This document shows, piece by piece, positions 20,815 through 46,525 of a stretch of 49,182 nucleotides of DNA. Source of the stretch: Deltaproteobacteria bacterium HGW-Deltaproteobacteria-8 (GTDB taxonomy: Bacteria; Desulfobacterota; Desulfovibrionia; Desulfovibrionales; Desulfovibrionaceae); the NCBI GenBank assembly GCA_002840405.1, contig PHAR01000004.1, positions 235,036 through 284,217 of the forward strand, given 5' to 3'. Position 1 is the first letter of the stretch, and every line of letters begins with the position of its first letter. The notes beneath the pieces were generated by a model, which was not told the DNA's origin, searched no databases, and worked only from the letters and a program-made list of their open reading frames with translations. The translations under genes and the position numbers were made by a program.

Positions 20815-20833
20815 CGCGGGAAGGAGGACGACC

Positions 20834-21493: not shown

Positions 21494-21514
21494 GGTCCCA
21501 AGGAGGAACCACAC

Positions 21515-22834
21515 ATGGGCATCACTGAACGACTCATTGAGGATGTGGGGATTCGGCGCGGGGTCTCGCGGCTGACCCCGGAGAAGATCGAAAAGATCGT
21601 CAACGCCGTGCTGAAAGGCGAAACCGGCGCCCGGCTCAAAACATACGCCGAGACCTGCATGCGCTGCGGCCTGTGCGCCGAGGCCTGCCACTTCGCACTC
21701 TCGCACCCCGACGACCCGAGCTACACCCCGGCGGGCAAGGTGCACCAGACCATGAGCGTGCTGCTCGACAAGAAGGGCCGGGTGGACCCGGACTTCGTGT
21801 ACGGCATGGCCCAGCTGGCCTACACCGAATGCAACCTCTGCCGCCGCTGCGTGCACCTCTGCCCCATCGGCATCGACACCGCCTACATCATGAGCACGGT
21901 CCGGCGCATCTGCCACAAGCTGGGAGTGACCCCGCAGTACATGCAGGACACCGCCCACAGCCACGCGTCGACCTTCAACCAGATGTGGGTCAAGGACGAC
22001 GAGTGGACGGACTCGCTGATCTGGCAGGAGGACGAGGCGCGGGAAGAGTTCCCCGGCCTGCGCATCCCGCTGGATAAGGAAGGTTCGGACATCTACTACT
22101 CGGTCATCGCGCCGGAGCCCAAGTTCCGCACCCAGCTCATCTATCAGGCCGCCGCCATCATGCACATGGCCGGCGTGGACTGGACCATGCCCGCCAGCAC
22201 CGGCTGGGACAACTCCGACATGTGCATGTTCTCCGGCGACTTCGAGATGATGGGGCGGCTCAAGCGCCAGCACTTCGAGAGCGCCCAGAAGCTCAAGGTC
22301 AAGCGCATCGTCATGGGCGAATGCGGCCACGCCTTCCGCTCCGTGTACGACACGGGCAACCGCTGGCTTGGCTGGCGCCACCACCCGGTGCCGGTGATCC
22401 ACGCCGTGGAGTTCTACTGGGAGCTCATCCAGGAAGGCAGGATCAAGCTGGCCAAGAAGTTCCCCGGCCCGGTCACCATCCAGGACCCCTGCAACATCGT
22501 GCGCGGACGCGGCCTGCAGGAGAAGCTGCGCGAGGTCACCCGCTTCCTGGTGGACGGAGACATCATCGAGATGCACCCCAACCGCGAGCACAACTTCTGC
22601 TGTGCGGCTGGCGGCGGCGTCATCAACTGCGGCCCGCCGTTCAAGAACGTGCGCGTCGACGGCAACACGGTCAAGGCCGAGCAGCTCCGGGCCACCGGCG
22701 TCAAGACGGTCATCACCCCGTGCCACAACTGCCACGGCGGGTTGCATGACATCATCCACCACCACAAGTTGGGCATGGATCTCAAGTTCTTGAGCGACAT
22801 CATCTACGAATGCATGGAAAAGCCAGAGGCCTAG
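21515..22834 (+). CDS. tmcB: TmcB, HdrD/DsrK-like iron-sulfur subunit of the Tmc complex
   Basis: A 439-residue cytoplasmic Fe-S protein. Two ferredoxin-type [4Fe-4S] motifs are at C48/C51/C54/C58 (CMRCGLCAEAC) and C106/C109/C112/C116 (CNLCRRCVHLC). The C-terminal half has cysteine-rich CCG-type motifs (FCCAAGGGVINCGP, TPCHNCHGGL) that in HdrD/DsrK bind a special catalytic [4Fe-4S] cluster. It would accept or donate electrons to a cytoplasmic partner of the sulfate pathway. AAGGAGG lies before the ATG, and the next gene, tmcA, starts 12 bp after the stop. Confidence 0.92.
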   Translation: MGITERLIEDVGIRRGVSRLTPEKIEKIVNAVLKGETGARLKTYAETCMRCGLCAEACHFALSHPDDPSYTPAGKVHQTMSVLLDKKGRVDPDFVYGMAQLAYTECNLCRRCVHLCPIGIDTAYIMSTVRRICHKLGVTPQYMQDTAHSHASTFNQMWVKDDEWTDSLIWQEDEAREEFPGLRIPLDKEGSDIYYSVIAPEPKFRTQLIYQAAAIMHMAGVDWTMPASTGWDNSDMCMFSGDFEMMGRLKRQHFESAQKLKVKRIVMGECGHAFRSVYDTGNRWLGWRHHPVPVIHAVEFYWELIQEGRIKLAKKFPGPVTIQDPCNIVRGRGLQEKLREVTRFLVDGDIIEMHPNREHNFCCAAGGGVINCGPPFKNVRVDGNTVKAEQLRATGVKTVITPCHNCHGGLHDIIHHHKLGMDLKFLSDIIYECMEKPEA

Positions 22835-22845
22835 AGGAGGCAGAC

Positions 22846-23235
22846 ATGAAGCGCATACTTCCCCTTCTCATCCTGGCCGGACTGGTCTGCGTGTCGGCCC
22901 TGGTGGCGGTCCAGACCGTCATGGCCCAGGACGCCATCACCAAACTGGCCCCCGAGGCCTTTGGCAAGCTGACGCGGCCCGCGGCCGTGTTCGTCCACGA
23001 CAAACACAACGAAAAGGCCAAGCTCGAAGACTGCGTCGTCTGCCACCACGGCGGCAAGGACGGAGTCATCGACCGCACGGCCTCCACCGAGGGCACGCCG
23101 TGCTCCGAGTGCCACAAGGTGAAGCCCGCCGGCAAGGCCACAAGCCTCCAGCGCGCCTACCACAAGCAGTGCATCGACTGCCACCGGACCAAGGGCAAGG
23201 GTCCCGTGGCTTGCGGGCAGTGCCACAAGCGCTGA
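22846..23235 (+). CDS. tmcA: TmcA, acidic type II tetraheme cytochrome c3
   Basis: A 129-residue periplasmic cytochrome. A signal peptide (MKRILPLLILAGLVCVSALV, cleavage near VMAQD) is followed by four CxxCH heme motifs: CVVCH, CSECH, CIDCH and CGQCH. FVHDKHN supplies distal His ligands, and the length is typical of class III tetraheme cytochrome c3. The type II form receives electrons from periplasmic hydrogenase/type I c3 and passes them to TmcBC. GAGGAGG precedes the chosen ATG, and the open frame upstream lies inside tmcB. It is the last tmc gene here. Confidence 0.93.
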   Translation: MKRILPLLILAGLVCVSALVAVQTVMAQDAITKLAPEAFGKLTRPAAVFVHDKHNEKAKLEDCVVCHHGGKDGVIDRTASTEGTPCSECHKVKPAGKATSLQRAYHKQCIDCHRTKGKGPVACGQCHKR

Positions 23236-32104: not shown

Positions 32105-32830
32105 ATGCCGCCTGACAGCTCGCCTGTAGACGTGCCTCTAGACAGGCGTGAAGGCACGACCGCCGAGCCGCGCGTCGTCCGCCGCATCTTCGCCGTGGGC
32201 GACATCCACGGCTGCCACGCCAAGCTCGCGCGCCTGCTGGAGGCCCTGCCCCTGGAGCCCGAGGGCGACCAGCTGGTGTTCCTCGGCGACTACATCAACC
32301 GAGGCCCGGACACCCGCGCCGTGCTGGACCTGCTGCTGGAGCTGGGAGAAAATCGGCCGGACACGGTGTTCCTTCAGGGCAACCACGAGGAGACCCTGCT
32401 GGGCTACGCCCGCACCGGCGACATGGACCTCTTGCCCCTGCTGCGCTCCATGGGCGTGGAGGCCACGCTCAAGAGCTACGGCGCTGCCCTGCCCGACACC
32501 CTGCGCGACTTGAGCTTCATGCCGCGCGAGCACGTGGAGTTTCTGCTGCGCCTGGAGCCGCACTATCGCGCCGGGGGCTATCTCTTCGTGCATGCGGGGG
32601 TGAATCCGAAAGGCGACCTGGCCCCGGACTGCCCGGCCGGGGAGTCGCTCACCGTGCGCGGCATGTTCTTGTCCTGCGCGCCCGGCGGGCCGGAAACCGT
32701 GGTCTTCGGGCACACGGGTTTTGACACGCCCTTTGTGGCTCCGGGAAAGATCGGGGTGGACACCGGGGCCTGGCAGGGCAACCTGCTCACCGCCCTGGAG
32801 CTCCCGGCGCTGGTGTTCCACCACGCTTGA
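32105..32830 (+). CDS. Metallophosphoesterase (PrpA/PrpE/ApaH-like serine-threonine phosphatase)
   Basis: A 241-residue protein of the PPP/ApaH-like calcineurin superfamily with all metal-binding motifs in order: GDIHG (~35-39), GDYINRGPD (~63-71), GNHE (~96-99), an HAG box (VHAGVNP) and GHTGFDTPF. It ends near GVDTGAW. It would use two metal ions to dephosphorylate phosphoproteins or diadenosine polyphosphates. The first ~20 residues are poorly conserved and the ribosome site is weak, so a slightly later start is possible. It is convergent with the module 2 operon. Two tandem 14-bp repeats (TTCACATCCGGCGC) lie after it at 32863-32890. Confidence 0.85.
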   Translation: MPPDSSPVDVPLDRREGTTAEPRVVRRIFAVGDIHGCHAKLARLLEALPLEPEGDQLVFLGDYINRGPDTRAVLDLLLELGENRPDTVFLQGNHEETLLGYARTGDMDLLPLLRSMGVEATLKSYGAALPDTLRDLSFMPREHVEFLLRLEPHYRAGGYLFVHAGVNPKGDLAPDCPAGESLTVRGMFLSCAPGGPETVVFGHTGFDTPFVAPGKIGVDTGAWQGNLLTALELPALVFHHA

Positions 32831-32905: not shown

Positions 32906-35578
32906 TCAGGCCTGGGGCGTCACGCCCTGCTCCGCAGAAATCCCCTCCAGGGCGTAGTCGCCCTCCAGAAAGGCCCGCGCAACCTTGCCGGGCATCTCGT
33001 CGTCGACCATGGCCGCGTCCAGCAGACGGGTGAAGCCAAGCAGCCTGCCAAGCATGACCAGCCGCTCCCGGGCCTCGGCCAGGGTGGGCTCGGAGAGCGT
33101 GGCCGTGACCATGTCGCCCCGGCGGTCGGTGAAGAAGCCATGAGCCTTCAGGATCTCGGACACGGCCTGGACGCGGCGCTCACGCTGCTCCCTGGCCGTG
33201 CCGCCGCCCTTGAAGCGGAAGCGCACGTAGTTCTCGCCCTGTTCCGGCCCGCAGACCGCGTCGACCATGGCGAAATGGAACTCCACGCGGGCGTTGACGT
33301 TCAGGTAGTCGCGGGCCACCAGGGCGTAGTTGAAGTTGCCCACGGGCCGGGCGCTGCGCCCATCGAGCAGGGCGCGCGACAGGACCCCGCCGACGTTGCC
33401 CACGGGCGGGGCCTCGCGCCAGCGCAGGCCAGGGGTGGCCATGCCCTCGCACAGGGCCAAAAGCGGCACCGAGCGCACGTCTGCCAGGGTGATGTTCCGA
33501 TGGGAATGCTGCGCGGCCAGGCCGCCGCCGAAGTCGATGAGCAGGAACGGGATCGGGCTCTCGTTCAGCCGACGGAGCAGCACGCCCGCGTCCTCGAGCA
33601 CGGCGTCCCCGGCGTCGAACATGGCCAGCACGGCCATCTCGTGGACATAGCGCACCAGGTCGTGGGCGGTCTTGCACTCCACAGGCGAGAAGGTCGGGCC
33701 ATAGGCGTCGGTGAGGTTCAGGGGCACCAGCAGGTCGTGCAGCGCGGCCAGGTCCGGCGGCAGCGGGGCCGGGGCGGGCGCGGACGTCCTGCGGCGGCAG
33801 GCCTGCGGATCGCCGCCAGTCTGGCCGTGCGCGACAGGAGCGGCCCCGGCCTCGCCAGCCTCAGCCTGGCAAGACCAGGCCTCTTCCGGCGCTTCCAGCA
33901 CCTCGCCCTGGTCGGCGTCCAGGATGATCCACTGGCCGTCGCGCAGCGCGTCCATGGCCCCGGCCACCCCGGTGAGCATGGGGATGGAAAGCTCACGCGC
34001 CACGCAGGACAGGTGGTCGGCCGGGTTGCCCAGCTCCACCACCACCCCGTCGTATTCCGGAAGCACCTGGGCCGCCTCGACCATGCTGTGGCGCAGGACG
34101 AGAATGCGCAGGCCCTGCGGCGCGTGCTCGGGGTCGGCCTCGCGGGCCGAGCGCGCCGGGTGGGCCTGGCCCACGGCGCGTCCCGGCGAGGCGGTGACGC
34201 CGGAATCGAGCAGCACGGCCCCGCGCGCCAGCCTGGCCGAGGCCCTGGCGCGTCCGGCCAGGCGCACCGGCCGGGCCTGGAGGATGCGGAAATGGTTGTC
34301 CGGGGTCATGGCCCACTCGATGTCCTGGGGCTGCCCGGCCAGGCTCTCGATCATGCGCGCGTAGCGCACCAGCCGGCGCAGCTCGTCGGCGTCGAGGACC
34401 GGAACCCGGCGCTCGGCCTCGGACACGGCCACGCGGCGCAGCCCGCCGCCCGGCAAGAGCTCGTCGCGGAAGTCCTTGTCCGCGATCTCGGCGGGCATGG
34501 CGGCTTCTTCTGCTGGGCTGGCGTCACGGGCCGGGTGGAACACGTCCACCGGGGCGTCTCCGCCCACGGCGCTGGTGCCCAGGCCGTGCACCGCGGTGAG
34601 CAGCATGCGCCCGCTCTCCGGGGCCGCCGGGTCCACGGTGAAGAGCACCCCGGCGCAGCGGGCCGGGACCATGACCTGGCAGAGCACGGCCATGTCGAAG
34701 TCCACCAGCGGCAGCCCGGCCTGGCGGCGGTAGCTTGTGGGGCTTGGCCCGAAATTCCCGGCCACGACCTCACGGAAGGCCTCCAGCAGATCCTTGGCCG
34801 TGGTCACGTTGAGCTCGGTGTGGAACTGCCCGGCAAAGGAGTGCTCGGCCTTGTCCTCCACCAGGGCGCTGCTGCGCACGGACACGGCCGGCCCGGCTCC
34901 TGCTCCGCCTCCAAGGCGCTCCCACGCGGCCACCAGCTCGGCGGCCAGATCGCCTGGCACCGGGGCGGCCAGGATCTCGCGCCGGATCTCCTGGGTGGCG
35001 GCCTCCACGGCCTTGCCCAGTTCCACCGCGCCCAGGCTGCGCCTGATCTTGGCCTCCAGCCCGGAGGCCGACAGGAAGCGGCGGCAGGCCTTGGTGGTGG
35101 CCACGAAGCCGTCGGGCACGGGCAGGCCGGAGCGCCGCAGCTGGGCCAGGGTGGCGGCCTTGCCGCCGCAGAACCGGCGCTGGTCGGCGTCGATGTCGGC
35201 CAGGGCCAGGCAGGTGGGGGTCTGGTCCTCACTCGGGGCGATGGCCGCCAGGGACCGGCGCACGGCCTGGGCCAGGCGGTCCTGACGCTCGAAGAGCCCC
35301 ATGTGGCCCCCCCCGGTGATGCGGTTCAGGCCGTCCACCAGGTCGAAGGTCGTGTCCATGAGCCGGGTCGCGGCCTCGGACAGGTCGGAGCGGTCGCGGC
35401 TGGCCAGGGCGCGCTCCACAAGGGCCAGGCGCTCCAGGGCCAGCTCGTTGTCGGCCAGAAGCACGCGGAAGGCGTGGTAGCGGGCCTTGAGCCGCCCCAG
35501 CGCCTCGCTGGCCCGGGCGTTGCGCAGGTCGCGCCAGGCGCCCAGCGCCTTGTTGAACCAGCGGCTCACGAAAGTCAT
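32906..35578 (-). CDS. PEP-synthase-like protein 3 (ATP-grasp + phosphohistidine domain + novel C-terminal domain)
   Basis: 890 residues, last gene of the module 2 operon. A helical N-terminal region (~1-115) precedes a PPDK/PEP-synthase ATP-binding domain with the signature intact: CGGKAATLAQLRRSGLPVPD, VRSSALVED (R235, E241, D242), HSFAGQF, GVLFTVDP and FRILQARP. The mobile domain has SPGRAVG and the phosphohistidine H522 in PADHLSCVAREL. Residues after ~600 contain no PEP/pyruvate TIM barrel; instead there is a ~290-residue domain shared with the two neighbours (LLVPLNLTD, TAHDLVRYVHEMAV, YVRFRFKGG). Its ATG overlaps the upstream stop by four bases. The acceptor of the phosphate is unknown. 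Confidence 0.85.
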   Translation of the reverse strand: MTFVSRWFNKALGAWRDLRNARASEALGRLKARYHAFRVLLADNELALERLALVERALASRDRSDLSEAATRLMDTTFDLVDGLNRITGGGHMGLFERQDRLAQAVRRSLAAIAPSEDQTPTCLALADIDADQRRFCGGKAATLAQLRRSGLPVPDGFVATTKACRRFLSASGLEAKIRRSLGAVELGKAVEAATQEIRREILAAPVPGDLAAELVAAWERLGGGAGAGPAVSVRSSALVEDKAEHSFAGQFHTELNVTTAKDLLEAFREVVAGNFGPSPTSYRRQAGLPLVDFDMAVLCQVMVPARCAGVLFTVDPAAPESGRMLLTAVHGLGTSAVGGDAPVDVFHPARDASPAEEAAMPAEIADKDFRDELLPGGGLRRVAVSEAERRVPVLDADELRRLVRYARMIESLAGQPQDIEWAMTPDNHFRILQARPVRLAGRARASARLARGAVLLDSGVTASPGRAVGQAHPARSAREADPEHAPQGLRILVLRHSMVEAAQVLPEYDGVVVELGNPADHLSCVARELSIPMLTGVAGAMDALRDGQWIILDADQGEVLEAPEEAWSCQAEAGEAGAAPVAHGQTGGDPQACRRRTSAPAPAPLPPDLAALHDLLVPLNLTDAYGPTFSPVECKTAHDLVRYVHEMAVLAMFDAGDAVLEDAGVLLRRLNESPIPFLLIDFGGGLAAQHSHRNITLADVRSVPLLALCEGMATPGLRWREAPPVGNVGGVLSRALLDGRSARPVGNFNYALVARDYLNVNARVEFHFAMVDAVCGPEQGENYVRFRFKGGGTAREQRERRVQAVSEILKAHGFFTDRRGDMVTATLSEPTLAEARERLVMLGRLLGFTRLLDAAMVDDEMPGKVARAFLEGDYALEGISAEQGVTPQA

Positions 35579-38067
35579 TGCCCACCCCCCTGCCCGTCCA
35601 CGCGGGCTTGCATCTGATCCGGCAGGCCCAGGAAGGCGCTGGCCTGGCTGGCCACGGCCTGGTCCGAGGAGAGGTCCGTGTCGAGCTGCCGGGTGAAGGC
35701 GGTGAGCTCGCCCAGGCGCGCAAGCACGGCCTCCATGTCCGGGCGGTCGGCCACCTTGAACTTGCCCACCACCAGGTCCTGGTTCACCACCACCTGGAAG
35801 CCCAGGCCCTCCAGGATGATGCGGATGAGCTTGGCCCGGCGCTCCCGGCGGCTCTCGTCGGCCAGGCCGCCCACGAAGCGGAAATAGATGGCGTTCTGGT
35901 TCGGGTTGTCGCCCAGGTGCGCGTCGACCACGCTGAAGTGGTAGCCCAGGCGCAGGCTCAAGTTCATGTAGCCCCGGGCCACGATGGCCAGGTTCTGGCC
36001 AGCCGCGCCCGTGGGGTCGTTCATCAGCTCGTAAGTCTTGCGCAGGCCGCCCAGCACATCCCCGGCACTCAAGGCTGCCGGGTCGGTGCGCCAGGCGCTT
36101 TTGCTGCACAGGCCGCGCAGAAAGGCCACCAGCGGCGCGCAGGCCAGCTGGTCCACGGTGATCTCGTGTCCGGCGCTCTCGGCCACGCCCTCGCCCAGGC
36201 CCTCGCCGATGTCCAGCACGCGGATGTCCATGGGCACGCCCAGCTTGAGCCTGCGGGCGTCGGCCCCGTCCAGGCCGGGCTGGCGGGCGTGGATCTCGGC
36301 CAGCTCCTCCACGGCCTTCTCGTGGGCGAAATGGATGAGGTCGTGGAAGCTGCGGCAGCCCGCCGGGGTGAAGTCCGCCGCCTCCGGGTCCAGCAGGTTG
36401 AGCGGCTGGATCAGCCGCAGGATGCGCCGCAAAAGCGCGTACTCCTGGTCGCCGGGGTCGAGCTCCGGGCCAAAGGAGCGCAGCCGCAGCAGCGGCTCCA
36501 GCACACCCTGGTAGACCGTGCCGCTCTGGGCGTCGGCCGAGGCGTCCACCGTGACGTCCGCGCCCATGGGCAGCAGCGTGAGCGCGCCCGGCAAACCGAA
36601 CAGGGCCGGAACGCGGTACTCGCGCGCGATGGTGGCCAGGTGCCCCACCGTGGTCCCGACCTCGGTGACCAGGGCGCTGGCCCGGCGCAGCACCGGGCTT
36701 AGGCGCGGCGCGGCCACATGGGCCACGGCCACCGCGCCCAGGGGAAAGTCCTCGGGGTCGTCGCCCGCGCGCACGTGCACCACGCGCCCGGCCCCCACAC
36801 CCGCCTGGGCGACGCTGCCGCCGCAGGCCAGCACCACCGCCCCGGCCAGGATCTCGTCCAGCTCCTCCGGGGCCTCCTCCATGCGGGCCAGGGGCCGCGT
36901 GGACGTGAGCAGGAGCCGCCCCCTGGGGGTCAAGATCCAGCCGAGCTCCTGGGGCGCGCCCAGCACCCGCTCCACGGCCATGCAGGCCTCGGCCAGGTCG
37001 GCCAGGGTCTTGGTGGACAAGAGCGCCGTGCCGCGCAGCAGCCCGTTCTTCAGCAGCGACAAGGGGGAGCCGCCGTCCGGGTGGTCGAAGTTGCCGGGCT
37101 TGGCCAAAATCTCCGAGCGCATGGCCCGAAAGGGATAGCTGCGCCGCACCAGGTGGCGCTCCACGCCTTTGCCGGGGGCGCTGCCGCCGCCCGCGTCGCC
37201 TTCCACGGACTGCCCGGGCTTGGCTGTTCCAGGCTGGGACACGCTGACGGACAGGGCGTCACGCTTGGACCAGGTGTGGTCCAGGGTCCGCACCACCCCG
37301 CGCAGGGCCGGTTCCGGAGCCTCGCGCACGCTGACGGACAGCTCCGCGTCGGCCCGCGCGCCCGTGGCGCTAGAAATATGGCGCGTGAGGGCGAGGCGGA
37401 TGACCAGGGGCAGGTCGTCGAGGTGCCGGGCCAGGGCCAGGGGCTCGCCGGGCAGGTCCGCCGCGCCGAGCCGGTGCACGGCCACGGCCAGGGGGCAGGC
37501 CCGGCCGCAGCGGCGGCGCAGGGCTGCGGCCTCGCGCTGCAGGCTCTCCTTCAGCTCCGGGGGGCAGGTCTTGTGGGCCAGCAGCTGGCGCACGCCCGCG
37601 GCCGTGAGGGCGAAGCCGTCCTGCATGGGCAGGCCGAAGCGGTGCTTGAGCTCGGCCAGGCTGGCCACGCCCGCGCCCACGGCCTGCTCGGTCTCCCAGC
37701 CGATGTCGGTGAAGGACAGCACCGGAGGCAGGGCTGCGGGATCCGGCCCGCCAGCCAGGATGTCGTCCAGCAGGGTGCGCAGGGCCTGGTAGCGGTCGAA
37801 GAGCTCGACATAACGGTCGCCGGTCAGGTTGTTCAGGCGGTAGACCACGCGCTGCACAAGCAGGCCCAGGTCGCGCACGGATTTTTCGAGAAAGGCGCGG
37901 TCGAAGATGTACTCGCCGCCCAGGGCGCGCTCGAGCCCGGCCATGAGCTCCAGGGCGTCGGTGTTGTGCTCCAGGATCAGGCGGAAGTTGTGGAACAGGG
38001 AGCGCATGGCCACGGACGTGGGCCGCTTTGTGCGGTCCTGACCGGGCTTGGAGAAGAGCTTTCCCAT
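35575..38067 (-). CDS. PEP-synthase-like protein 2, ATP-binding site degenerate
   Basis: 830 residues, same architecture as its neighbours. The helical N-terminus has FRLILEHNTDALELMAGLER. The ATP-grasp region (~130-395) has lost VRSSA, the acidic pair and SFAGQ; a low-complexity Gly/Ser/Pro stretch (~278-302) sits in its place. Only the fringe motifs (FGLPMQDGFALT, LLLTSTRPL) remain. The phosphohistidine domain is kept, with H476 in TTVGHLATIAREY, and the C-terminal domain is kept (IQPLNLLD, FHDLIHFAHEKAVEEL, YFRFVGG). It is probably a phosphoacceptor or scaffold that depends on a partner for ATP (inference). AAGGGA precedes the ATG; the stop overlaps the next start. Confidence 0.83.
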   Translation of the reverse strand: MGKLFSKPGQDRTKRPTSVAMRSLFHNFRLILEHNTDALELMAGLERALGGEYIFDRAFLEKSVRDLGLLVQRVVYRLNNLTGDRYVELFDRYQALRTLLDDILAGGPDPAALPPVLSFTDIGWETEQAVGAGVASLAELKHRFGLPMQDGFALTAAGVRQLLAHKTCPPELKESLQREAAALRRRCGRACPLAVAVHRLGAADLPGEPLALARHLDDLPLVIRLALTRHISSATGARADAELSVSVREAPEPALRGVVRTLDHTWSKRDALSVSVSQPGTAKPGQSVEGDAGGGSAPGKGVERHLVRRSYPFRAMRSEILAKPGNFDHPDGGSPLSLLKNGLLRGTALLSTKTLADLAEACMAVERVLGAPQELGWILTPRGRLLLTSTRPLARMEEAPEELDEILAGAVVLACGGSVAQAGVGAGRVVHVRAGDDPEDFPLGAVAVAHVAAPRLSPVLRRASALVTEVGTTVGHLATIAREYRVPALFGLPGALTLLPMGADVTVDASADAQSGTVYQGVLEPLLRLRSFGPELDPGDQEYALLRRILRLIQPLNLLDPEAADFTPAGCRSFHDLIHFAHEKAVEELAEIHARQPGLDGADARRLKLGVPMDIRVLDIGEGLGEGVAESAGHEITVDQLACAPLVAFLRGLCSKSAWRTDPAALSAGDVLGGLRKTYELMNDPTGAAGQNLAIVARGYMNLSLRLGYHFSVVDAHLGDNPNQNAIYFRFVGGLADESRRERRAKLIRIILEGLGFQVVVNQDLVVGKFKVADRPDMEAVLARLGELTAFTRQLDTDLSSDQAVASQASAFLGLPDQMQARVDGQGGGQ

Positions 38068-38169
38068 GCGATCCCTTGCGGCGGCCCCTGCGGTGGGTCA
38101 TCCGCCTTTTCGTTTTGAAACATCCGCTGCGCCGGAAGGCCCCAGCAGCAGCCCTCCTTCAGTCCGGCC

Positions 38170-38586
38170 TCAACCGGCCCGCAACCCCTTGTCCAGGCGC
38201 TGCTTGTCCTCGATGCGCCGCACCGTGTCCAGAATGTCCGAGAGCTTGAACGGTTTGGCCACGAAGTCGAACGCGCCCTTGCGGAAGGACTCCTTGGCCG
38301 TGTCCAGCGTGGCGAAGCCGGTGATGACCACCACCCCGGTGTCCGGCGAAAGCTCCTTGACCCGGGTCAGGAAGCGCATGCCGTCCACGCCCTCCATCTT
38401 GAGGTCGGTGATGACGATGTCAAAGCGCGTCTCCTCCACGCGTGAGAGGGCGCTGGCGCTGTCCGTGAAGGTCTCCACCTCGTACCCGGCCTTCTGGAAG
38501 GAGGGCTTGAGGCGCTTGCAGACGATGGGCTCATCGTCCAGGATCAGGATGCGGGTCTTGCCACCCGGCTTGATGTCGTCAGTCAT
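38170..38586 (-). CDS. Stand-alone receiver protein between PEP-synthase-like genes
   Basis: A 138-residue receiver with D17/D18 in LILDDEP, phosphoacceptor D61 in IVITDLKMEGVDGM, and the late lysine in FVAKPFK. It has no output domain. Its first helix (VCKRLKPSFQKAGYEVETFT) resembles the receiver of the sigma-54 activator at 45179 (VCRRLSQMLARDGYEVEAFT). Because that region sets kinase specificity, both are probably phosphorylated by the kinase at 43688. The start overlaps the end of PEP-synthase-like protein 1 by eight bases; 102 bp separate its stop from the next gene. Confidence 0.9.
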   Translation of the reverse strand: MTDDIKPGGKTRILILDDEPIVCKRLKPSFQKAGYEVETFTDSASALSRVEETRFDIVITDLKMEGVDGMRFLTRVKELSPDTGVVVITGFATLDTAKESFRKGAFDFVAKPFKLSDILDTVRRIEDKQRLDKGLRAG

Positions 38587-41197
38587 TGCGCACCTCCAGA
38601 AGGGGCGTGATGCGTTTGAGAAATTCCTCGGCGTGGCGGCCGATGTCCTCGTCCTCGCGCAGGCACACGTCCAGTTGCCGAGTGTAGCCGATGAGCCCGC
38701 CCAGGACCAGCATCTTCTCCCGCATGCGGTCTGGCGGGAGCTTCTTGATGCGGCCCACCACCAGGTCGCCGTGGACCTCCACCCGGAAGTCCAGACGCTC
38801 CAGGATCAGGGCGATGCAGCGCGCCCGGCGGGACCGGCGCATGAAGTCCGTGACCCCGCCGAGGAAGCGGAAGTAGATGTAGTTGTCGTTGACGCGCTCG
38901 CCGATGTAGGCGTCGATGATGTTGAAGTGATAGCCCAGGCGCAGGTGCAGGTTCATGTACTCGTGCGACACCACGGCCAGGTTGCGGCCGATCTTGCCGG
39001 GCGCGGCCGAGGCCGAGCTGAAGGTCCGGGTGAAGCTCGACATGAAGCTGCCGAGGTCCACGCTCATGGGCTCGGTGGACCACATGCCGGACTGGGTGAG
39101 GCCGTCGAGCAACGCGCCCAGCGGCACCGAGTCCAGCTCGTCCTGGCGCACGTCGCGGTCCTCGGGCGAGGGCACGGGGCCGGAGTCCAGATCGATGACC
39201 ATGAGCCCCAGGGGTTGCGCCGAGGTCAGGCGCCTCTGCGTGGCCCCGCTGCGGTGCCAGTGGCGCTCGCTCACCTCGATGAGCTCCTCCACGGCCTTCT
39301 CGTGGATCCAGCGGGTGATGTCGTGGAAGGTGCGGCAGGCCGAGGCCTTGAACTGCTCGCTGTGCGGGTCCACCAGGTTCAGGGGCACGATGCGCTTCAA
39401 AAGCCGCCGCAGCAGCCGGTACTCGGCGGACTCCTCGAAGGACTCCTCGCTGGTCAGCTCAAACCTGCAGAGCTCCTGCACGGCCCCGCGGAACACCGCG
39501 TTCCGGGTGGTGTCCAGCGTGATCTCGTCGCCGGTCTTGAGCAGGCTGGTGGCCACGCCGGTGTTGACCACGGCAGGCACCCGGTACTCCCGCGCCAGGG
39601 CCGACATGTGCCCGGTGGCCGAGCCCACGTCGGTGATGATGCCCTGGGCCGCGCGCATGACGCGCGAAAAGCGCGGCGAGGTGTGGTGGGTGACCAGGAT
39701 GGCCCCGTTGGGGAAATGCGCCAGGTCCGCATCGTTGCGGGCCACAAAGACCTTGCCCACGGCCACGCCGTGCTGGACCACGGTGCCCTTGCCGGAAAAG
39801 ATGACCTCGGCGTTGCGCGTGGCGTCGACCACGCTCATGGACGGGTCCGGGCAGGACAGGGCCTGGCGCGGCTGCATGTTCAGCGGCCGGGCCTGAAGGA
39901 TGTACAAAACGTCCTGGGCGTCGAAGGACCACTCCACGTCCTGGGGCCGCTTGTAGAACCGCTCGATGGTCATGGCCGTCTGGGCCAGGCGCTGGATGCG
40001 CGCGGGCGAGAGGCAGGGCATGTCGCGCAGCGCGGGCTCCACGTCCGCAAGGCCCGTGCCGCCCCCGGCCAGGGCCGTCAGCCGCAGCGGCTTGTGCGCG
40101 ATCTCGGCGGAGCGCACCGCGTGCGTCGGGGTGCGGTCGATGAAATAGGTGTCGGTCTCGGCCGTGCCGTCCACCACGGGCGCGCCCAGGCCCCAGGTGG
40201 CGGAGATGACCATGGCGTCCTCCTCGCGCGCCAGGGGCGCGTAGGTGTACAGCGCGCCGCTGACCTCGGCCTCGACCATGGCCTGGCAGCCCACGGCCAT
40301 GGCCGTCTCGTTCTCCTTGTAGTTCCGGTGCAGGCGGTAGCGCCAGACCTCCGGCGAATAGGCCCCGGCCAGCACGCGCTTGTAGGCCGAGAGCACCTTG
40401 TCCGCAGGCACGGCCAGCACGCTCTCGTACTGCCCGGCGAAGCTGAACTCGGCGTCCTCGCCCCAGGCGCTGCTGCGCACCGCGAAGAGCGTGGCCTTGC
40501 CGCCGTGGCGGGCGGCCAGCACGTCGAGCATGGCAGCGATCTGCTGGGCCACGGGCCGGGGCACCTCGCCCTCCAGGATGCGCGTGCGGATGTCCAGGGA
40601 CAGCGCGTCCAGGGCGCCCTCGTCGGCCTCCGAGCCTGAAAGCGGCCCCTGGTCCAGACGGGCAAGGCCCTCCTCGACCCGGCGCGTCACATCGTTGTGC
40701 GCCATGAAGTCGAAGAAGGCCTTGCTGGTGATGACGAAGCCGTCCGGCGTGGGAAGGCCCAGGAGGTTGCGCACGTCGCCCAGGTGGGCCAGCTTGTTGC
40801 CGGCCTCCTCGCTCACGTCGCGGTTCAGGTCCTCCAGCGGCATGGTCAGGCTGGTGTTGGGAAACGAATGCCGTCCGGCCAGCTCCTCTTCGATCTGGTG
40901 CTGAATGCTCTCAAAGGCCAGGAACAGGTCCACGTTCTTGCGCTGGGTCAACACGCTCAAGTCCGAGATCAGCTTGAACACCAGGTCGCCCAGGCGCTCG
41001 CAGGCCGAGACAATGTACTGCCCGTCAAAGACGTACTCGCCGCTCAGCTTGTCGCCCATGTCGGCCATGAGCTCCAGGATGGCGTTGTTGCGCGTCAGGA
41101 TCATCTCGAACTTCTTGAACTGCACGGCAAAGGGGACCGGCGGCCTCTTGGGCCGCCAGAAGGCGAACATGTCCCGGATGCCGGAGAGACTCAACAT
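38579..41197 (-). CDS. PEP-synthase-like protein 1 (ATP-grasp + phosphohistidine domain + novel C-terminal domain)
   Basis: 872 residues. The N-terminal helical region is at ~25-125 (FKKFEMILTRNNAILELMAD). The ATP-grasp domain is at ~130-440 with VRSSAWGED (R241, E247, D248), FSFAGQYES, CQAMVEAEVSGALYT, WGLGAPVV and LYILQARPL. The mobile domain has phosphohistidine H530 in GSATGHMSALAREY. The C-terminal domain is at ~595-872 (IVPLNLVD, FHDITRWIHEKAVEEL, YIYFRFLGG, RRARCIALILERL) with no PEP barrel. Canonical PEP synthase forms PEP from pyruvate and ATP; here the carbon-substrate domain is replaced, so a different acceptor is likely. It starts nine bases after the TIGR02186 gene. Confidence 0.87.
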   Translation of the reverse strand: MLSLSGIRDMFAFWRPKRPPVPFAVQFKKFEMILTRNNAILELMADMGDKLSGEYVFDGQYIVSACERLGDLVFKLISDLSVLTQRKNVDLFLAFESIQHQIEEELAGRHSFPNTSLTMPLEDLNRDVSEEAGNKLAHLGDVRNLLGLPTPDGFVITSKAFFDFMAHNDVTRRVEEGLARLDQGPLSGSEADEGALDALSLDIRTRILEGEVPRPVAQQIAAMLDVLAARHGGKATLFAVRSSAWGEDAEFSFAGQYESVLAVPADKVLSAYKRVLAGAYSPEVWRYRLHRNYKENETAMAVGCQAMVEAEVSGALYTYAPLAREEDAMVISATWGLGAPVVDGTAETDTYFIDRTPTHAVRSAEIAHKPLRLTALAGGGTGLADVEPALRDMPCLSPARIQRLAQTAMTIERFYKRPQDVEWSFDAQDVLYILQARPLNMQPRQALSCPDPSMSVVDATRNAEVIFSGKGTVVQHGVAVGKVFVARNDADLAHFPNGAILVTHHTSPRFSRVMRAAQGIITDVGSATGHMSALAREYRVPAVVNTGVATSLLKTGDEITLDTTRNAVFRGAVQELCRFELTSEESFEESAEYRLLRRLLKRIVPLNLVDPHSEQFKASACRTFHDITRWIHEKAVEELIEVSERHWHRSGATQRRLTSAQPLGLMVIDLDSGPVPSPEDRDVRQDELDSVPLGALLDGLTQSGMWSTEPMSVDLGSFMSSFTRTFSSASAAPGKIGRNLAVVSHEYMNLHLRLGYHFNIIDAYIGERVNDNYIYFRFLGGVTDFMRRSRRARCIALILERLDFRVEVHGDLVVGRIKKLPPDRMREKMLVLGGLIGYTRQLDVCLREDEDIGRHAEEFLKRITPLLEVRND

Positions 41198-41206
41198 AAC
41201 CGCGTC

Positions 41207-41980
41207 CTAGTGTGCTCCCTTGCTCTGGAACACCAGCCCGATGGCCAGGCCGCTCAACAATGCCACGATGGTGGCCAGGATGCCATAGACAAGCGAATGG
41301 TTGAAGGCCACGTCGGCCAGCTTGGCCGGGATGCCCACCAGCTCCACCGGCACGCCGGTCTTGCCGCTGGCGGCAAGCTTGCCATCCTTCAGCGCCAGCA
41401 CCTCGACGCTGTACTCGCCGGGCAGGAGCTTCGAGGGCACGGGCATGACCGCGCGGAACTCCTGGCTCGCGCCGTCCGCAGGGCTCAAGGTCACGCCGCC
41501 CCGCACCTCGCGGTACAGGCCTTCCTCGCGCCGCAGCTTGAGCAGCTCCAGGCGATTGACCGGGGTGTCCTTGTCTGCCGGGGTGATGACGATGTCCTGG
41601 GACACCTGCTCCAGGCGATACGGGGCCGCAGCTGCGCCCAAGGCGTCCAGATCCTTGGAGGCCGTGACCAGATACACCGAGGGCACCTCGTCGATGGTCA
41701 GGGAAGCCAGGTTCATCCAGAGCAGGCCCAGGGCGCGGCCCTTCTCCTTCATGTGCAACTCGGTGCGCGCGCCCACAAAGCGCACCACCACGTCGCTGCC
41801 GGCCGGGGCCTTGCCCGTGACCGTGAGCGTGGTGCCATCATAGGTGGCGCCGATCTTCACCGAGGGCGGGCTCACGACGAGGTCCAGGCCGCCCGGAGCG
41901 AAGTTCGCGGCCAGGGCCGCCGCCGGAAGAACCAGCAGGACGGCGAACAGGGTGATGAGGCTTATCTTCAATCCGCGCAT
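41207..41980 (-). CDS. TIGR02186-type protein, exported with a C-terminal membrane anchor
   Basis: 257 residues. A signal peptide (ISLITLFAVLLVLPAAALAA) is followed by a beta-rich periplasmic domain (LDLVVSPPSVKIGATYDGTT, VVRFVGARTELHMKEKGR, LPGEYSVEVLALKDG) and a single C-terminal helix at ~228-250 with a short cytoplasmic tail. The overall pattern is that of the TIGR02186 conserved hypothetical family, which commonly accompanies TauE/SafE proteins. It may be the periplasmic partner of the adjacent transporter, two bases upstream. Biochemical function is unknown. Confidence 0.78.
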   Translation of the reverse strand: MRGLKISLITLFAVLLVLPAAALAANFAPGGLDLVVSPPSVKIGATYDGTTLTVTGKAPAGSDVVVRFVGARTELHMKEKGRALGLLWMNLASLTIDEVPSVYLVTASKDLDALGAAAAPYRLEQVSQDIVITPADKDTPVNRLELLKLRREEGLYREVRGGVTLSPADGASQEFRAVMPVPSKLLPGEYSVEVLALKDGKLAASGKTGVPVELVGIPAKLADVAFNHSLVYGILATIVALLSGLAIGLVFQSKGAH

Positions 41981-41982
41981 GG

Positions 41983-42942
41983 CTAGTGTCCTCCCACGTA
42001 GGCCAGCAGAACGCTTGGCGTGGCCAGCAGGCCGTAGAGCATCTTGCCCATGACCACCAGCACCAGCGAGGCCAGCAGAATCTTCAGTTGTTCGCCGTGC
42101 AGGCGCTTGCCGACCTTGGCGCCGATCTGCGCGCCGAAGGACGAGCCCAGGAGCAGGATCAGGGCCAGGACAAAGTCCACGGTGTGGTTCTCCACAGACT
42201 GCATGATGGTCACGTTGACGCAGGTGAACAGGATCTGGAACAGGCTGGTGCCGACCACCACATGCATGGGCATGCGCAGCAGGTAGACCATGACCGGGAC
42301 CATGATGAAGCCGCCGCCCACGCCCATGATGGCCGACAGCACGCCGACCAGCACGCCCAGCACCAGGGGCATGAGCACGGACAGGCGGATGCCGGAGCGC
42401 GGGAAGTCCATCTGCCAGGGCATGGCCTTGATGCAGCGCGCATAGGCCGACTCTTTCTTCGGCTTTTGCGGCTCGGCGCCGGCTTCCTGGGAGGACTGGG
42501 CCGGCTTCTTGTTCTTGCGCATGGCCTGCAGGCTCTCCAGGAACATGTAGCCGCCCACAAAGCCCAGCATGAGCACATAGGTGATGTTGATCAGAAAATC
42601 CGCGTTGCCCATGGCCCGCAAGACCTTGATGACCTGGACGCCAAGGGTGCCGCCCAGCACGCCGCCCACAAGCAGCAGCAGGCCCATCTTGAAGTCCACG
42701 TTGCCCATGCGGAAATGCGCCAGCGTGCCCGAGGTGGACGCGCCCACGATCTGGTTGGAGTCCGAGGCCGCAGCCACGGTGGGCGGGATGCCCATCATGA
42801 TCAGAAGCGGCGTCATCAGAAAGCCTCCGCCGACACCGAAGATGCCGGAGAGCAGGCCTACCGCGACGCCCAGGCCCAGGACTGCGGCCACGTTGACGCT
42901 GTTGCCAGCGATGGGAAGGTAGAGATGCAGCGGTATGGCCAT
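41983..42942 (-). CDS. TauE/SafE-family transmembrane transporter (module 2)
   Basis: A 319-residue protein with the duplicated TauE/SafE motif: first half GLGVAVGLLSGIFGVGGGFL, second half GVLVGVLSAIMGVGGGFIMV. Eight or so membrane helices are interrupted by a charged cytoplasmic loop (MRKNKKPAQSSQEAGAEPQK). The ATG at 42942 follows AAGGGG; a TTG three bases upstream is the only alternative. It starts just after the Usp stop and is followed two bases later by the TIGR02186 gene. It is probably an anion or organosulfur exporter; the substrate is not identifiable. Confidence 0.88.
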   Translation of the reverse strand: MAIPLHLYLPIAGNSVNVAAVLGLGVAVGLLSGIFGVGGGFLMTPLLIMMGIPPTVAAASDSNQIVGASTSGTLAHFRMGNVDFKMGLLLLVGGVLGGTLGVQVIKVLRAMGNADFLINITYVLMLGFVGGYMFLESLQAMRKNKKPAQSSQEAGAEPQKPKKESAYARCIKAMPWQMDFPRSGIRLSVLMPLVLGVLVGVLSAIMGVGGGFIMVPVMVYLLRMPMHVVVGTSLFQILFTCVNVTIMQSVENHTVDFVLALILLLGSSFGAQIGAKVGKRLHGEQLKILLASLVLVVMGKMLYGLLATPSVLLAYVGGH

Positions 42943-42945
42943 CAA

Positions 42946-43386
42946 TTACCCCTTGTGCGTCTGAAGGTTCACGTTCTTTTTCGGGGAAACCACTTCCACT
43001 CGGCAGGAAACGCGGTGGCGTATCCTCTGCAACCAGGACGACTCCGCATCCTGAGACCGGCCGTCCCCCCGACCGTCCCCATCCATGGCCTCGACCACAA
43101 GCAATGTGGTCCGGTCATGCTCCACAAAACGGATGACCTCTTCCACAAAGCCGCCCTCGGCCACGAAGTGCTGGATGCGCACCCCCTCGGCCTTGGCGGC
43201 CTCGATGCGCAGCTCCAGGCGGTTCTTCACGGCGTCCTCGCTAAAGGCCGCAGCGCCCACAAGCTGGGGCGGCAGCACCCGCAGCACCGAGACCTGGGCG
43301 CCGATGCGCCCGGCCAGGGCAATGGACCGGGACAAGGCCTCCCAGCCCCCGTGCGCGCCGTCCATGCAGACAAGAATCCGTTCCAT
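42946..43386 (-). CDS. Usp-like protein (module 2), first gene of the sigma-54 operon
   Basis: 146 residues in a single Usp-like fold: MERILVCMDGAHGGWEALSR, LAGRIGAQVSVLRVLPPQ, a central RLELRIEAAKAEGVRIQHFV and TTLLVVEAM. A C-terminal basic end (RHRVSCRVEVVSPKK) takes the place of the usual last strand. The Gly-rich ATP motif is not evident. GGGGAG lies just before the ATG at 43386; the longer open frame to 43524 runs across the promoter and is rejected. It is co-transcribed with TauE/SafE. Confidence 0.82.
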   Translation of the reverse strand: MERILVCMDGAHGGWEALSRSIALAGRIGAQVSVLRVLPPQLVGAAAFSEDAVKNRLELRIEAAKAEGVRIQHFVAEGGFVEEVIRFVEHDRTTLLVVEAMDGDGRGDGRSQDAESSWLQRIRHRVSCRVEVVSPKKNVNLQTHKG

Positions 43387-43415
43387 GTGTCTCCCCTGTC
43401 GAATGCAGGGTCTAA

Positions 43416-43431
43416 AGCAACGGCGGTGCCA
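43416..43431 (-). promoter_or_regulatory. Sigma-54 (-24/-12) promoter of the module 2 operon
   Basis: On the minus strand TGGCAC-CGCCG-TTGCT matches the sigma-54 consensus TGGCAC-N5-TTGCW exactly, with correct GG/GC spacing. Predicted transcription start is about 43405, roughly 20 bases before the Usp ATG. A sigma-54 activator gene lies divergently nearby. The AT-rich stretch at 43443-43475 could hold enhancer or IHF sites. Confidence 0.88.
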
Positions 43432-43687: not shown

Positions 43688-45166
43688 ATGACCGGCCACA
43701 CGCACCCGCAGTCCGCCACGGCCCCGTCCCGGGAAGGCTCGCTGCTAAACTTCTTCCGCTCCATCAAGGGCAAGATGTTCCTGGTCTTCGCCCTGACCTT
43801 CCTCTCGGCCGGGCTTTTGACCGCGCTGAACCTCTGGACCATGGACACGGTGAAGAGCCGCCTGCTCATGGGCGAGCGCTACGAGTACCTCCTGGAGAAC
43901 ATCCTGGAGGTGCGGCGCTTCGAGAAGAACTTCCTGCTTTACGGCGACGGCGCAAGCATCGAGGAGGGCAACAGCTACCTGAAACGCGTGGGCGAGCTGG
44001 TGGCCGAGCTGGCCCCGGACATCGCGGACGTGGCCGGGCAGCAGGGTCTTCAGTCGTTCCAGGAGGCGCTGCGGGCCTACGAGGCCTCGGTGCGCTCCTT
44101 TGCCGCCGGAACCCGGCCCAACCGCGAGGAGGTGCGCTCACGCGGGAAGGCGCTTGTGGATTTCGCCCAGAAGATCATCCAGACCAAGCGCACGCGCATC
44201 CACCGCACCCTGGCCCGGGCCTCGGTGCTGCCCTTTGCCTACCTGGGCGTGTTCCTGCTGCTCATGGTGGTCATCATCAAGCTCATCTCGCGCGGCATGC
44301 TGCGCCCGCTGGACGTCATCCGCGTGACCACCGAGCGCGTGGCCCGGGGCGACTTCAGCCCCATCCCGCCGAGCCCCGGCCAGCTGGGCGAGATCGCCGG
44401 GCTGGTGGGCGCCTTCAACCGCATGGCGCACGAGCTGGAGGCCAACCAGGAGGACCTGCTCCAGGCCCGCAAGATCGCCGCGCTCGGCACCTTCACTGCG
44501 GGCATCGCGCATGAGCTGAACAACCCGCTGAACAACATCTCCCTCACCGGCGAGGCCTTCATGGAGGTCCACGGCGAGGAGCTCGACGCCGACGGCGCAG
44601 AGATGATCGACGACATCATGGCCCAGGCCGAGCGCGCCAGCGAGATCGTCAAGAACCTGCTGGACTTCTCGCGCACGGAGCACCCGACCTTCAGCCCCCT
44701 GGCCCCGGAGGACATCGCCCGGAGCACGGTGGCCCTGGTGCGCAACCAGGTCATGCTCTCCGGGGTGCGCCTGGAGATGCAGATCCCCGACGGCCTGCCC
44801 GCCATCATGGGCGACCTGCGCACGCTGCAGCAGGTGTTCATGAACCTGTTGCTGAACGCCATGCAGGCCACCCCGCCCGAGGGCGTCATCAGCCTGCGGG
44901 CCGCCAACGCACCGGGCGACTTCGTCCGCTTCGAGGTGCGCGACACCGGCTCCGGCATCCCGCAGGGGGCCCTGCAGCACATCTTCGAGCCCTTCTTCAC
45001 CACCAAGGAGGTGGGCCGGGGCACGGGCCTGGGCCTGGCCGTCACCTACGCCATCATCAAGCGGCACAACGGCCGCATCGACGTGAAGAGCGAACCGGGC
45101 CAGGGCAGCGTGTTCAGCGTGTACCTGCCCAAGGCCACGGCCCAGGACAAGGACCAGAGTCCATAA
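43688..45166 (+). CDS. Sensor histidine kinase with periplasmic helical-bundle domain (module 2)
   Basis: A 492-residue membrane kinase. A ~20-residue polar N-terminus precedes TM1 at ~30-50. The periplasmic helical bundle has ILEVRRFEKNFLLYG. TM2 is at ~180-202 (LPFAYLGVFLLLMVVIIKLI), then HAMP, HisKA with phospho-His in GIAHELNNPLNNIS, N box (FMNLLLNAMQAT), DTGSGI and GRGTGLGL. It is paralogous to the kinase at 16446-17918 in every domain. The ATG at 43688 is used here; an in-frame TTG at 43682 lies closer to the AGGAGAACGA site and may be the true start. The sigma-54 activator follows 12 bp later, so they are a cognate pair. Confidence 0.9.
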   Translation: MTGHTHPQSATAPSREGSLLNFFRSIKGKMFLVFALTFLSAGLLTALNLWTMDTVKSRLLMGERYEYLLENILEVRRFEKNFLLYGDGASIEEGNSYLKRVGELVAELAPDIADVAGQQGLQSFQEALRAYEASVRSFAAGTRPNREEVRSRGKALVDFAQKIIQTKRTRIHRTLARASVLPFAYLGVFLLLMVVIIKLISRGMLRPLDVIRVTTERVARGDFSPIPPSPGQLGEIAGLVGAFNRMAHELEANQEDLLQARKIAALGTFTAGIAHELNNPLNNISLTGEAFMEVHGEELDADGAEMIDDIMAQAERASEIVKNLLDFSRTEHPTFSPLAPEDIARSTVALVRNQVMLSGVRLEMQIPDGLPAIMGDLRTLQQVFMNLLLNAMQATPPEGVISLRAANAPGDFVRFEVRDTGSGIPQGALQHIFEPFFTTKEVGRGTGLGLAVTYAIIKRHNGRIDVKSEPGQGSVFSVYLPKATAQDKDQSP

Positions 45167-45178
45167 GGGAGAGCTTTG

Positions 45179-46525
<1,347 letters not shown>

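Follow-up and report, generated by a model that had tools for sequence, protein, structure and literature searches.

What do three tandem proteins that resemble phosphoenolpyruvate (PEP) synthase, and lack its substrate barrel, do in an operon with a membrane transporter and a response-regulator receiver? The operon lies in a stretch of 49,182 nucleotides (the window) from Deltaproteobacteria bacterium HGW-Deltaproteobacteria-8, positions 235036-284217 of contig PHAR01000004.1 in an assembly of 13 contigs (GCA_002840405.1). Its seven minus-strand genes code head to tail for a universal stress protein (Usp), a TauE/SafE transporter (TauE), an Alph_Pro_TM membrane protein, the first PEP synthase-like protein (PEPS1), a stand-alone receiver and two further PEP synthase-like proteins (PEPS2 and PEPS3). 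All three PEPS proteins end in a common C-terminal domain (CTD) that, from its sequence and predicted structure, appears to be a new C-terminal domain in the dikinase superfamily. The TauE, Alph_Pro_TM, PEPS1 and receiver genes form a conserved core, which is newly described here. As to function, gene content and residue patterns point, with a probability of about 0.42, to a receiver-gated, ATP-charged phosphohistidine module that would control the TauE-type anion transporter. The operon, its promoter and its flanking genes are as follows.

43416-43431, minus strand: sigma-54 promoter box TGGCACCGCCGTTGCT, an exact consensus match 29 bases ahead of the Usp ATG
42946-43386, minus strand: Usp, an optional member (PF00582, E 1.5e-08; ATG at 43386)
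41983-42942, minus strand: TauE/SafE (TSUP) anion transporter (PF01925, E 1.9e-51)
41207-41980, minus strand: Alph_Pro_TM or TIGR02186-type membrane protein (PF09608, E 2.2e-43)
38579-41197, minus strand: PEPS1, 872 residues, with an N-terminal helical domain, an intact ATP-grasp, a phosphohistidine swivel (H530) and the CTD
38618-39412, minus strand: CTD of PEPS1, residues 596-860, a fold without match
38170-38586, minus strand: stand-alone receiver with canonical D17, D18, D61, T89 and K111 (PF00072, E 4e-29)
35575-38067, minus strand: PEPS2, 830 residues, which keeps the swivel (H476) and the CTD but has lost the catalytic residues of the ATP-grasp
35623-36432, minus strand: CTD of PEPS2, residues 546-815 (approximate)
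32906-35578, minus strand: PEPS3, 890 residues, with an intact ATP-grasp, swivel (H522) and CTD, forming a separate clade
32951-33751, minus strand: CTD of PEPS3, residues 610-876 (approximate)
32132-32830, plus strand: calcineurin-like phosphoesterase, convergent with PEPS3 (PF00149, E 2e-15)
43688-45166, plus strand: HAMP histidine kinase, divergent from the operon (HAMP, HisKA, HATPase_c)
45200-46525, plus strand: sigma-54 activator with a receiver domain, divergent (PF00158, E 4.6e-69; PF00072)

An earlier note, made from the letters of the window, had proposed a sigma-54-driven, head-to-tail operon; its gene order, coordinates and overlaps proved right, and exact matches to the sigma-54 consensus are expected by chance at 0.09 per shuffled window. 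The receiver gene overlaps the PEPS1 gene by 8 nucleotides and the PEPS2 and PEPS3 genes overlap by ATGA. TauE is a member of the TSUP family (175.5 bits for PF01925 versus a cut-off of 32.6). It shares 79-94% identity with the corresponding proteins of seven other clusters, a higher value than the PEPS proteins show. The Alph_Pro_TM protein falls under the TIGR02186 cut-off (77.8 versus 255.25 bits). The receiver is a single-domain response regulator of 138 residues with PF00072 as the sole family above cut-off; across the window and the related loci, D17, D18, D61 and K111 were present in 85/85 receivers and T89 in 83/85.

Could the PEPS proteins be PEP synthases after all? Pfam (E<=0.1) identified PPDK_N and PEP-utilizers in all three and no third family, so that no PEP/pyruvate barrel domain was found in any of them; PEPS3 was scanned as an 872-residue form lacking its first residues. 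PF00391 was above cut-off in PEPS1, PEPS2 and PEPS3. Similarity to the PEP synthase of PDB 8a8e spans residues 122-579 of PEPS1 in a sequence alignment, and over this region the PEPS proteins share with PEP synthase and PPDK (TIGR01418; PDB 2ols, 8a8e) an ATP-grasp followed by a phosphohistidine swivel in the same order. Where those enzymes have a barrel, however, the PEPS proteins carry the unmatched CTD, together with an extra N-terminal helical domain and a genetic link to a receiver and a transporter. The TIGR01418 scores were 289 (PEPS1), 84 (PEPS2) and 224 (PEPS3) bits, far under the cut-off of 739.75. A standard PEP synthase is ruled out by these scores and the missing barrel, and an ordinary PEP synthase or other central-carbon enzyme with an unusual end is, despite the similarity over residues 122-579, a very improbable description.

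The swivel histidine is H530 in PEPS1, H476 in PEPS2 and H522 in PEPS3, and is kept in 80/81, 19/19 and 16/16 homologues respectively. The phosphohistidine motif read earlier from the window thus stands for all three proteins as regards the histidine; the glycine thought to precede it does not hold for PEPS3, which has an aspartate there. The ATP-grasp catalytic residues, which we take to be equivalent to those of PPDK, are conserved in PEPS1 (K135 in 80/81, R241 in 81/81, E422 in 81/81 and Q435 in 80/81), in PEPS3 (16/16) and in the paralogs (44-45 of 45). PEP synthase also has a regulatory threonine ahead of the swivel histidine (PMC12167813; this and the papers cited below are represented here by parts of their text). 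The corresponding residue 528 is threonine in 61/81 PEPS1, 6/19 PEPS2, 4/16 PEPS3 and 24/45 paralogs, and was not used as evidence. The N-terminal helical domain of PEPS1 (about 110 residues; 40868-41197, minus strand) has 8 matches in the genome, all in PEPS-like frames and the last two weak; as a guess, it might be a docking site for the receiver.

The CTD comprises about 290 residues, and the copies in PEPS2 and PEPS3 share 40-41% and 29-31% identity, respectively, with the PEPS1 copy. Nine copies are present in the source genome, and the domain is part of a large family of paralogs. The claim that one shared domain had replaced the PEP barrel is therefore borne out by the Pfam scan, by the 29-41% identity between copies and by the predicted structure. 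AlphaFold2 modelled the CTD alone with a mean predicted local distance difference (pLDDT) of 81.7 and a predicted template-modelling score (pTM) of 0.76, and full PEPS1 with 87.4 and 0.81. The model contains helices and short strands in its first half, followed by four strands, one helix, another two strands and further helices; as modelled, the fold is not a (beta/alpha)8 barrel, the standard structure that would have contradicted the earlier note. The novelty of the domain was likewise supported within the libraries searched. No convincing match to Pfam or NCBIfam was found among 93 copies (best E 0.0079 and 0.038), each listed family being matched by one or two of the 93 members. A CTD profile found none of the PDB sequences at E<=10, and Foldseek found no match of the CTD to the PDB or to viral models at E<=0.001 (best 0.057 and 0.021). 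Foldseek matches to RecJ-like proteins and alanyl-tRNA synthetase had low TM-scores and were not used. With whole PEPS1 as the query, Foldseek matched PEP synthase, rifampin phosphotransferase (RPH), HpeI and PPDK.

Eight residues of the CTD (H625, D626, P692, H757, G780, G781, R791 and D843) are invariant across 82 proteins, and they bring in the main rival to a regulatory module: PEPS1 and PEPS3 would be small-molecule dikinases whose CTD, a new substrate domain standing where PEP synthase has its barrel, phosphorylates an anion or metabolite imported by TauE and thereby traps it. Besides the invariant residues, the position of the CTD, which starts where the similarity to PEP synthase (PDB 8a8e, residues 122-579) stops, is as expected of an acceptor domain. 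RPH and HpeHI likewise reuse the ATP-grasp and swivel with a different acceptor domain, and some two-component dikinases, HpeHI for example, divide the ATP-grasp and the swivel/substrate part between two proteins (PMC12167813). PEPS2 would then depend in trans on the ATP-grasp of another PEPS protein, much as HpeH depends on HpeI, and the receiver would merely tune the reaction. In RPH, on the other hand, the swivel motif is located towards the C terminus, whereas in the PEPS proteins the order is ATP-grasp, swivel, CTD; neither the PDB profile search nor Foldseek found homology between the CTD and the acceptor domains of RPH or HpeHI. The presence of nine CTD proteins in one genome also fits poorly with such an enzyme, which on present evidence we consider doubtful.

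PEPS2 differs from its partners in a respect absent from the earlier note. Its PPDK_N is degenerate, matching only profile positions 2-57 of 328, and R241, E422 and Q435 are each retained in just 2/19 homologues. In contrast, the swivel histidine and the equivalents of R536, E537 and P541 are kept in 19/19, as are H625, D626, H632, D669, H757, G780, G781, R791, D811, R840 and D843 of the CTD; E633 (18/19) and N772 (13/19) are less strict. Among the 14 loci that encode PEPS1, PEPS2 and PEPS3 together, mean pairwise identities were 0.349 (ATP-grasp), 0.570 (swivel) and 0.525 (CTD) for PEPS2, versus 0.483, 0.621 and 0.577 for PEPS1 and 0.501, 0.507 and 0.588 for PEPS3. In a tree of the swivel and CTD of 81 sampled proteins, PEPS1, PEPS2 and PEPS3 formed one clade each, and PEPS1, PEPS2 and one divergent paralog were grouped with support of 100/100. 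Since PEPS2 is a single clade, its loss of ATP use looks old, with the rest of the protein retained. A protein that lacks the ATP-grasp residues and keeps the swivel histidine throughout is probably charged by a partner protein, and the multi-protein phosphotransfer arrangement suggested earlier gains support from this pattern.

How general is the operon? The CTD was found in 36/40 genomes of a search among relatives (source genome counted) and in 107/297 genomes sampled across the phylum. Loci were collected by scanning named genomes with an alignment of PEPS1 proteins alone, the best 79 of 171 being studied; because PEPS1 was the query, this set is biased towards it. By record title, the 79 loci are mostly from Desulfobacterota or Deltaproteobacteria, with single metagenome-assembled genomes labelled Abyssobacteria, Latescibacterota, Zixiibacteriota and Myxococcota. 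Counts leave out L114 and L148, in which PEPS1 was under threshold, and L125 and L141, which are too short. TauE and Alph_Pro_TM were both upstream of PEPS1 in 59/61 loci with room for them (misses L131 and L134), and a receiver adjoined PEPS1 in 73/75 (misses L131 and L145), adjacency being counted from the start of the hidden Markov model match. These counts substantiate the tie to the TauE/TIGR02186 pair and to the receiver that had been suspected from the window. In a less biased whole-genome sample, not selected by neighbourhood, in which at most 8 candidates were scored per genome and the best matches listed, PF09608 was within 3.5 kb of 42 of the 46 strongest CTD matches, and 42/59 PF09608 matches have a strong-match CTD. 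The idea of three tandem PEPS proteins as the core did not survive. By best profile, 51 of 77 loci, some of them cut by contig ends, carry neither PEPS2 nor PEPS3, 16 carry both, 6 PEPS2 alone and 4 PEPS3 alone; three tandem PEPS proteins were thus rejected as the defining feature, and PEPS2 and PEPS3 are extras to the core.

The constancy of the receiver next to PEPS1 raises another possibility, namely that the PEPS proteins are phosphodonors or phosphatases of the lone receiver, with a relay between His530 and Asp61 through contact with the CTD, and that TauE is a mere regulated neighbour. The receiver has the canonical acceptor residues, and receivers also adjoin many CTD paralogs. However, 65 loci exceed 9 kb, and of these 52 have a strong match to a histidine kinase, a possible partner for the receiver (43 have a strong match to the activator and 30 a Usp match). 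The presence of TauE beside CTD proteins without a swivel, described below, is left unexplained as well, and so is the phenotype common to TauE, receiver and PEPS-like mutants, unless it is due to polarity (PMC4001038). This alternative is accordingly held to be improbable.

Transcriptional control and a phosphatase also recur. A sigma-54 box that deviates by no more than one base was found upstream of the operon in 31/64 loci versus 1.25% of 1280 random segments; the other 15 of the 79 loci were set aside because they had no strong TauE or too little upstream sequence. The divergent HAMP histidine kinase is a conserved neighbour of the operon in related loci, and the divergent sigma-54 activator likely regulates it. 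A calcineurin-like phosphatase (PF00149) was within 600 bases of PEPS3 in 12/14 loci (not in L143, and farther away in L147), and among the 65 loci without PEPS3 it occurred in one, L131, which carries a PEPS3-like paralog. From its sequence, this phosphoesterase resembles a PPP-type protein phosphatase.

The CTD and TauE are also linked in proteins that have lost the swivel. In a first kind, H625R and E633Q occur in 11/11; L208 and L213, which otherwise have the same residue pattern, possess the swivel and keep both residues. In a second kind (L150 and L151), H632L and H757N occur in 2/2. All 13 swivel-less CTD proteins lie beside a TauE gene. Altered CTD histidine and glutamate residues in swivel-less proteins that stay beside TauE therefore tie these residues to the phosphohistidine and the proteins to TauE. 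Examples are at L021:9389-11704, L150:8725-10530 and L151:9456-11207, and that of L021 also has a degenerate ATP-grasp. Such proteins weigh against the dikinase reading. Because they persist by TauE, because a lone receiver accompanies PEPS1 and because phosphatases are neighbours, a switch is favoured over a dikinase, although not decisively. More broadly, TauE occurred in a stretch of about 16 kb around 10/20 CTD paralogs versus 1/20 control stretches displaced along the same contigs (Fisher p 0.003). The 20 paralogs, from other genomes, were hand-picked below the strongest group with their neighbours unseen, and the stretches of L162 and L166 are shorter. A separate arrangement was noted at L066:2595-14416, where genes for TauE, a receiver and two CTD proteins, along with a frame weakly similar to Usp, surround a sigma-54 activator. 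It may resemble the DVU2956-DVU2967 region, whose regulator has been linked to biofilm (PMC4641369, PMC8586430).

Is there genetic evidence for such a module? In Desulfovibrio, a nitrate cluster (DVU0251-DVU0245; Dde_0597-0605) comprises TauE, a hypothetical protein, PtxB, a histidine kinase, a receiver, a PPDK-like protein and a phosphatase (PMC4001038). TauE, a receiver and a PPDK-like gene are together in it, as in the window operon. It differs in having PtxB, a DSP phosphatase and one PEPS protein instead of Alph_Pro_TM, a PF00149 phosphatase and three PEPS proteins; the Pfam scan found neither PtxB nor a DSP phosphatase among the seven genes of the operon. The available part of PMC4001038 does not mention a C-terminal domain in the PPDK-like protein. 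In the source genome, locus L022 contains PtxB, a histidine kinase, a receiver, a CTD-bearing PEPS protein and a DSP phosphatase (DSPc), with no TauE in the stretch examined, and its gene order is that given for DVU0249-DVU0245 (PMC4001038). The L022 PEPS protein falls outside the PEPS1-3 clades of the swivel and CTD tree. Twenty loci of the L022 type were taken from the matches listed for the taxonomic family of the window. TauE is present in 14 of them, PtxB and DSP in 17 each, and a kinase and a receiver in 19 each; in 13/20, all six kinds of gene, with a CTD-bearing PEPS among them, are on one strand. In two of these 13, L226 and L230, two neighbours, sorted by open-frame start, are listed in swapped order. 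Hence DVU0246 probably belongs to the CTD-bearing PEPS family, an assignment based on gene order and annotated domains.

Isolated mutants with a transposon in DVU0246 (PEPS-like), DVU0247 (receiver), DVU0250 or DVU0251 (TauE) grew equally with and without 100 mM nitrate, which inhibited the control, and a leaky thiosulfate transporter was suggested by the authors (PMC4001038). Since the TauE insertion may be polar, more weight falls on the mutants of DVU0246 and DVU0247. The like phenotypes of TauE and PEPS-like mutants would also suit trapping by a dikinase. In D. vulgaris, TSUP and PSE operons are under sigma-54 control, including DVU2957-DVU2964 under DVU2956; no PEPS-like protein is named in the available part of that account (PMC4641369). 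Searches of the open PubMed Central (PMC) literature listed no paper with the names PF09608, TIGR02186 or Alph_Pro_TM, subscription papers being outside their scope; for the nitrate cluster and its genes they led to PMC4001038 and, in the case of DVU0251, also to PMC3431258.

In the scheme that we infer from the observed domain anatomy, residue losses and retentions and gene order, the divergent histidine kinase and sigma-54 activator would turn the operon on, as the layout and promoter box suggest, and TauE and Alph_Pro_TM, judged by their families and pairing, would form a membrane transporter. PEPS1 and PEPS3, which have the conserved catalytic residues, would phosphorylate their own swivel histidine with ATP in the manner of PEP synthase, and the phosphoryl group would be presented to the CTD; PEPS2, charged in trans, would extend the relay. 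The charged or uncharged state of the PEPS proteins, read or gated by the lone receiver, would set the activity of TauE, and the phosphatase adjoining PEPS3 might reset the relay. Control of transport by a phosphohistidine carrier is known from the nitrogen phosphotransferase system, whose enzyme I has the swivel domain alone in common with the PEPS proteins (Foldseek, E 3e-3 and weaker); enzyme I is charged by PEP, whereas the PEPS proteins would be charged by ATP. It is conceivable, but rather unlikely, that these loci represent signal transduction of a new class, based on an ATP-charged phosphohistidine dikinase relay, distinct from PEP-fed systems and from histidine kinases, in which the CTD passes the phosphoryl signal to a TSUP transporter or gates it, with a lone receiver for control, PEPS2 as a kinase-dead relay paralog and a dedicated phosphatase. 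A broad distribution of the CTD module among sulfate reducers, as many paralogs, belongs to this tentative proposal.

Several points weigh against control of TauE by the module. The many invariant polar residues of the CTD suit an enzyme acting on a small molecule. Each kind of swivel-less protein may be a single evolutionary event, two in all, and L150 and L151 align weakly (CTD 98-107 bits). TauE was missing from the stretches examined for 10/20 sampled CTD paralogs and for L017, L019, L020 and L022, four of the six paralogs of the source genome outside the operon; with so many paralogs lacking TauE, the CTD family is therefore not only about TauE. Two-component genes were near 14/20 CTD paralogs versus 7/20 displaced stretches (Fisher p 0.056), and no enrichment is claimed. 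The nitrate phenotype is that of a paralogous cluster, not of the window operon. Within it, the DVU0245 (phosphatase) mutant was inhibited by 100 mM nitrate like the control, the pooled fitness values of DVU0250 (-5.82) and DVU0245 (-6.04) are negative, unlike those of the G20 homologs, and D. vulgaris has only a pseudogene for the kinase DVU0248 (PMC4001038). A transposon insertion in TauE could act through downstream genes; because of this possible polarity and the DVU0248 pseudogene, the published support is weakened. Biochemistry for any family member was not found in the open PMC literature.

Other features of the window were noted in passing. A single 778-residue frame at 870-3206 (minus strand) is a fusion of a PALP domain of the cysteine-synthase type with the catalytic domain of a cysteinyl-tRNA synthetase. 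A Lon-type protease (AAA and Lon_C) at 11123-13156 (plus strand) has a receiver domain in front; a signalling set of Lon protease, kinase and regulator has been described in D. vulgaris (PMC10102598). At 8555-9598 (minus strand) there is a second TauE/SafE gene with a small neighbouring gene without a Pfam match. Genes for a beta-propeller repeat protein, Nitrate_red_gam, CCG/Fe-S and cytochrome c3 proteins at 19612-23232 (plus strand), followed by kinase, receiver and Usp genes, presumably resemble those of the Tmc electron-transfer complex.

TSUP (TauE/SafE) transporters are abundant in sulfate reducers. Predicting their function has been called not feasible at present (PMC5840216). If the proposed module is real, control of TSUP transporters would explain why signalling and PEP synthase-like genes stand alongside TauE among nitrate-resistant Desulfovibrio mutants (PMC4001038), and the module would bear on souring control with nitrate. 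The dikinase superfamily would gain a new C-terminal domain, for which a genetic phenotype is already available as a test, and the conserved operon suggests a new way to switch transport on and off in sulfate-reducing bacteria.

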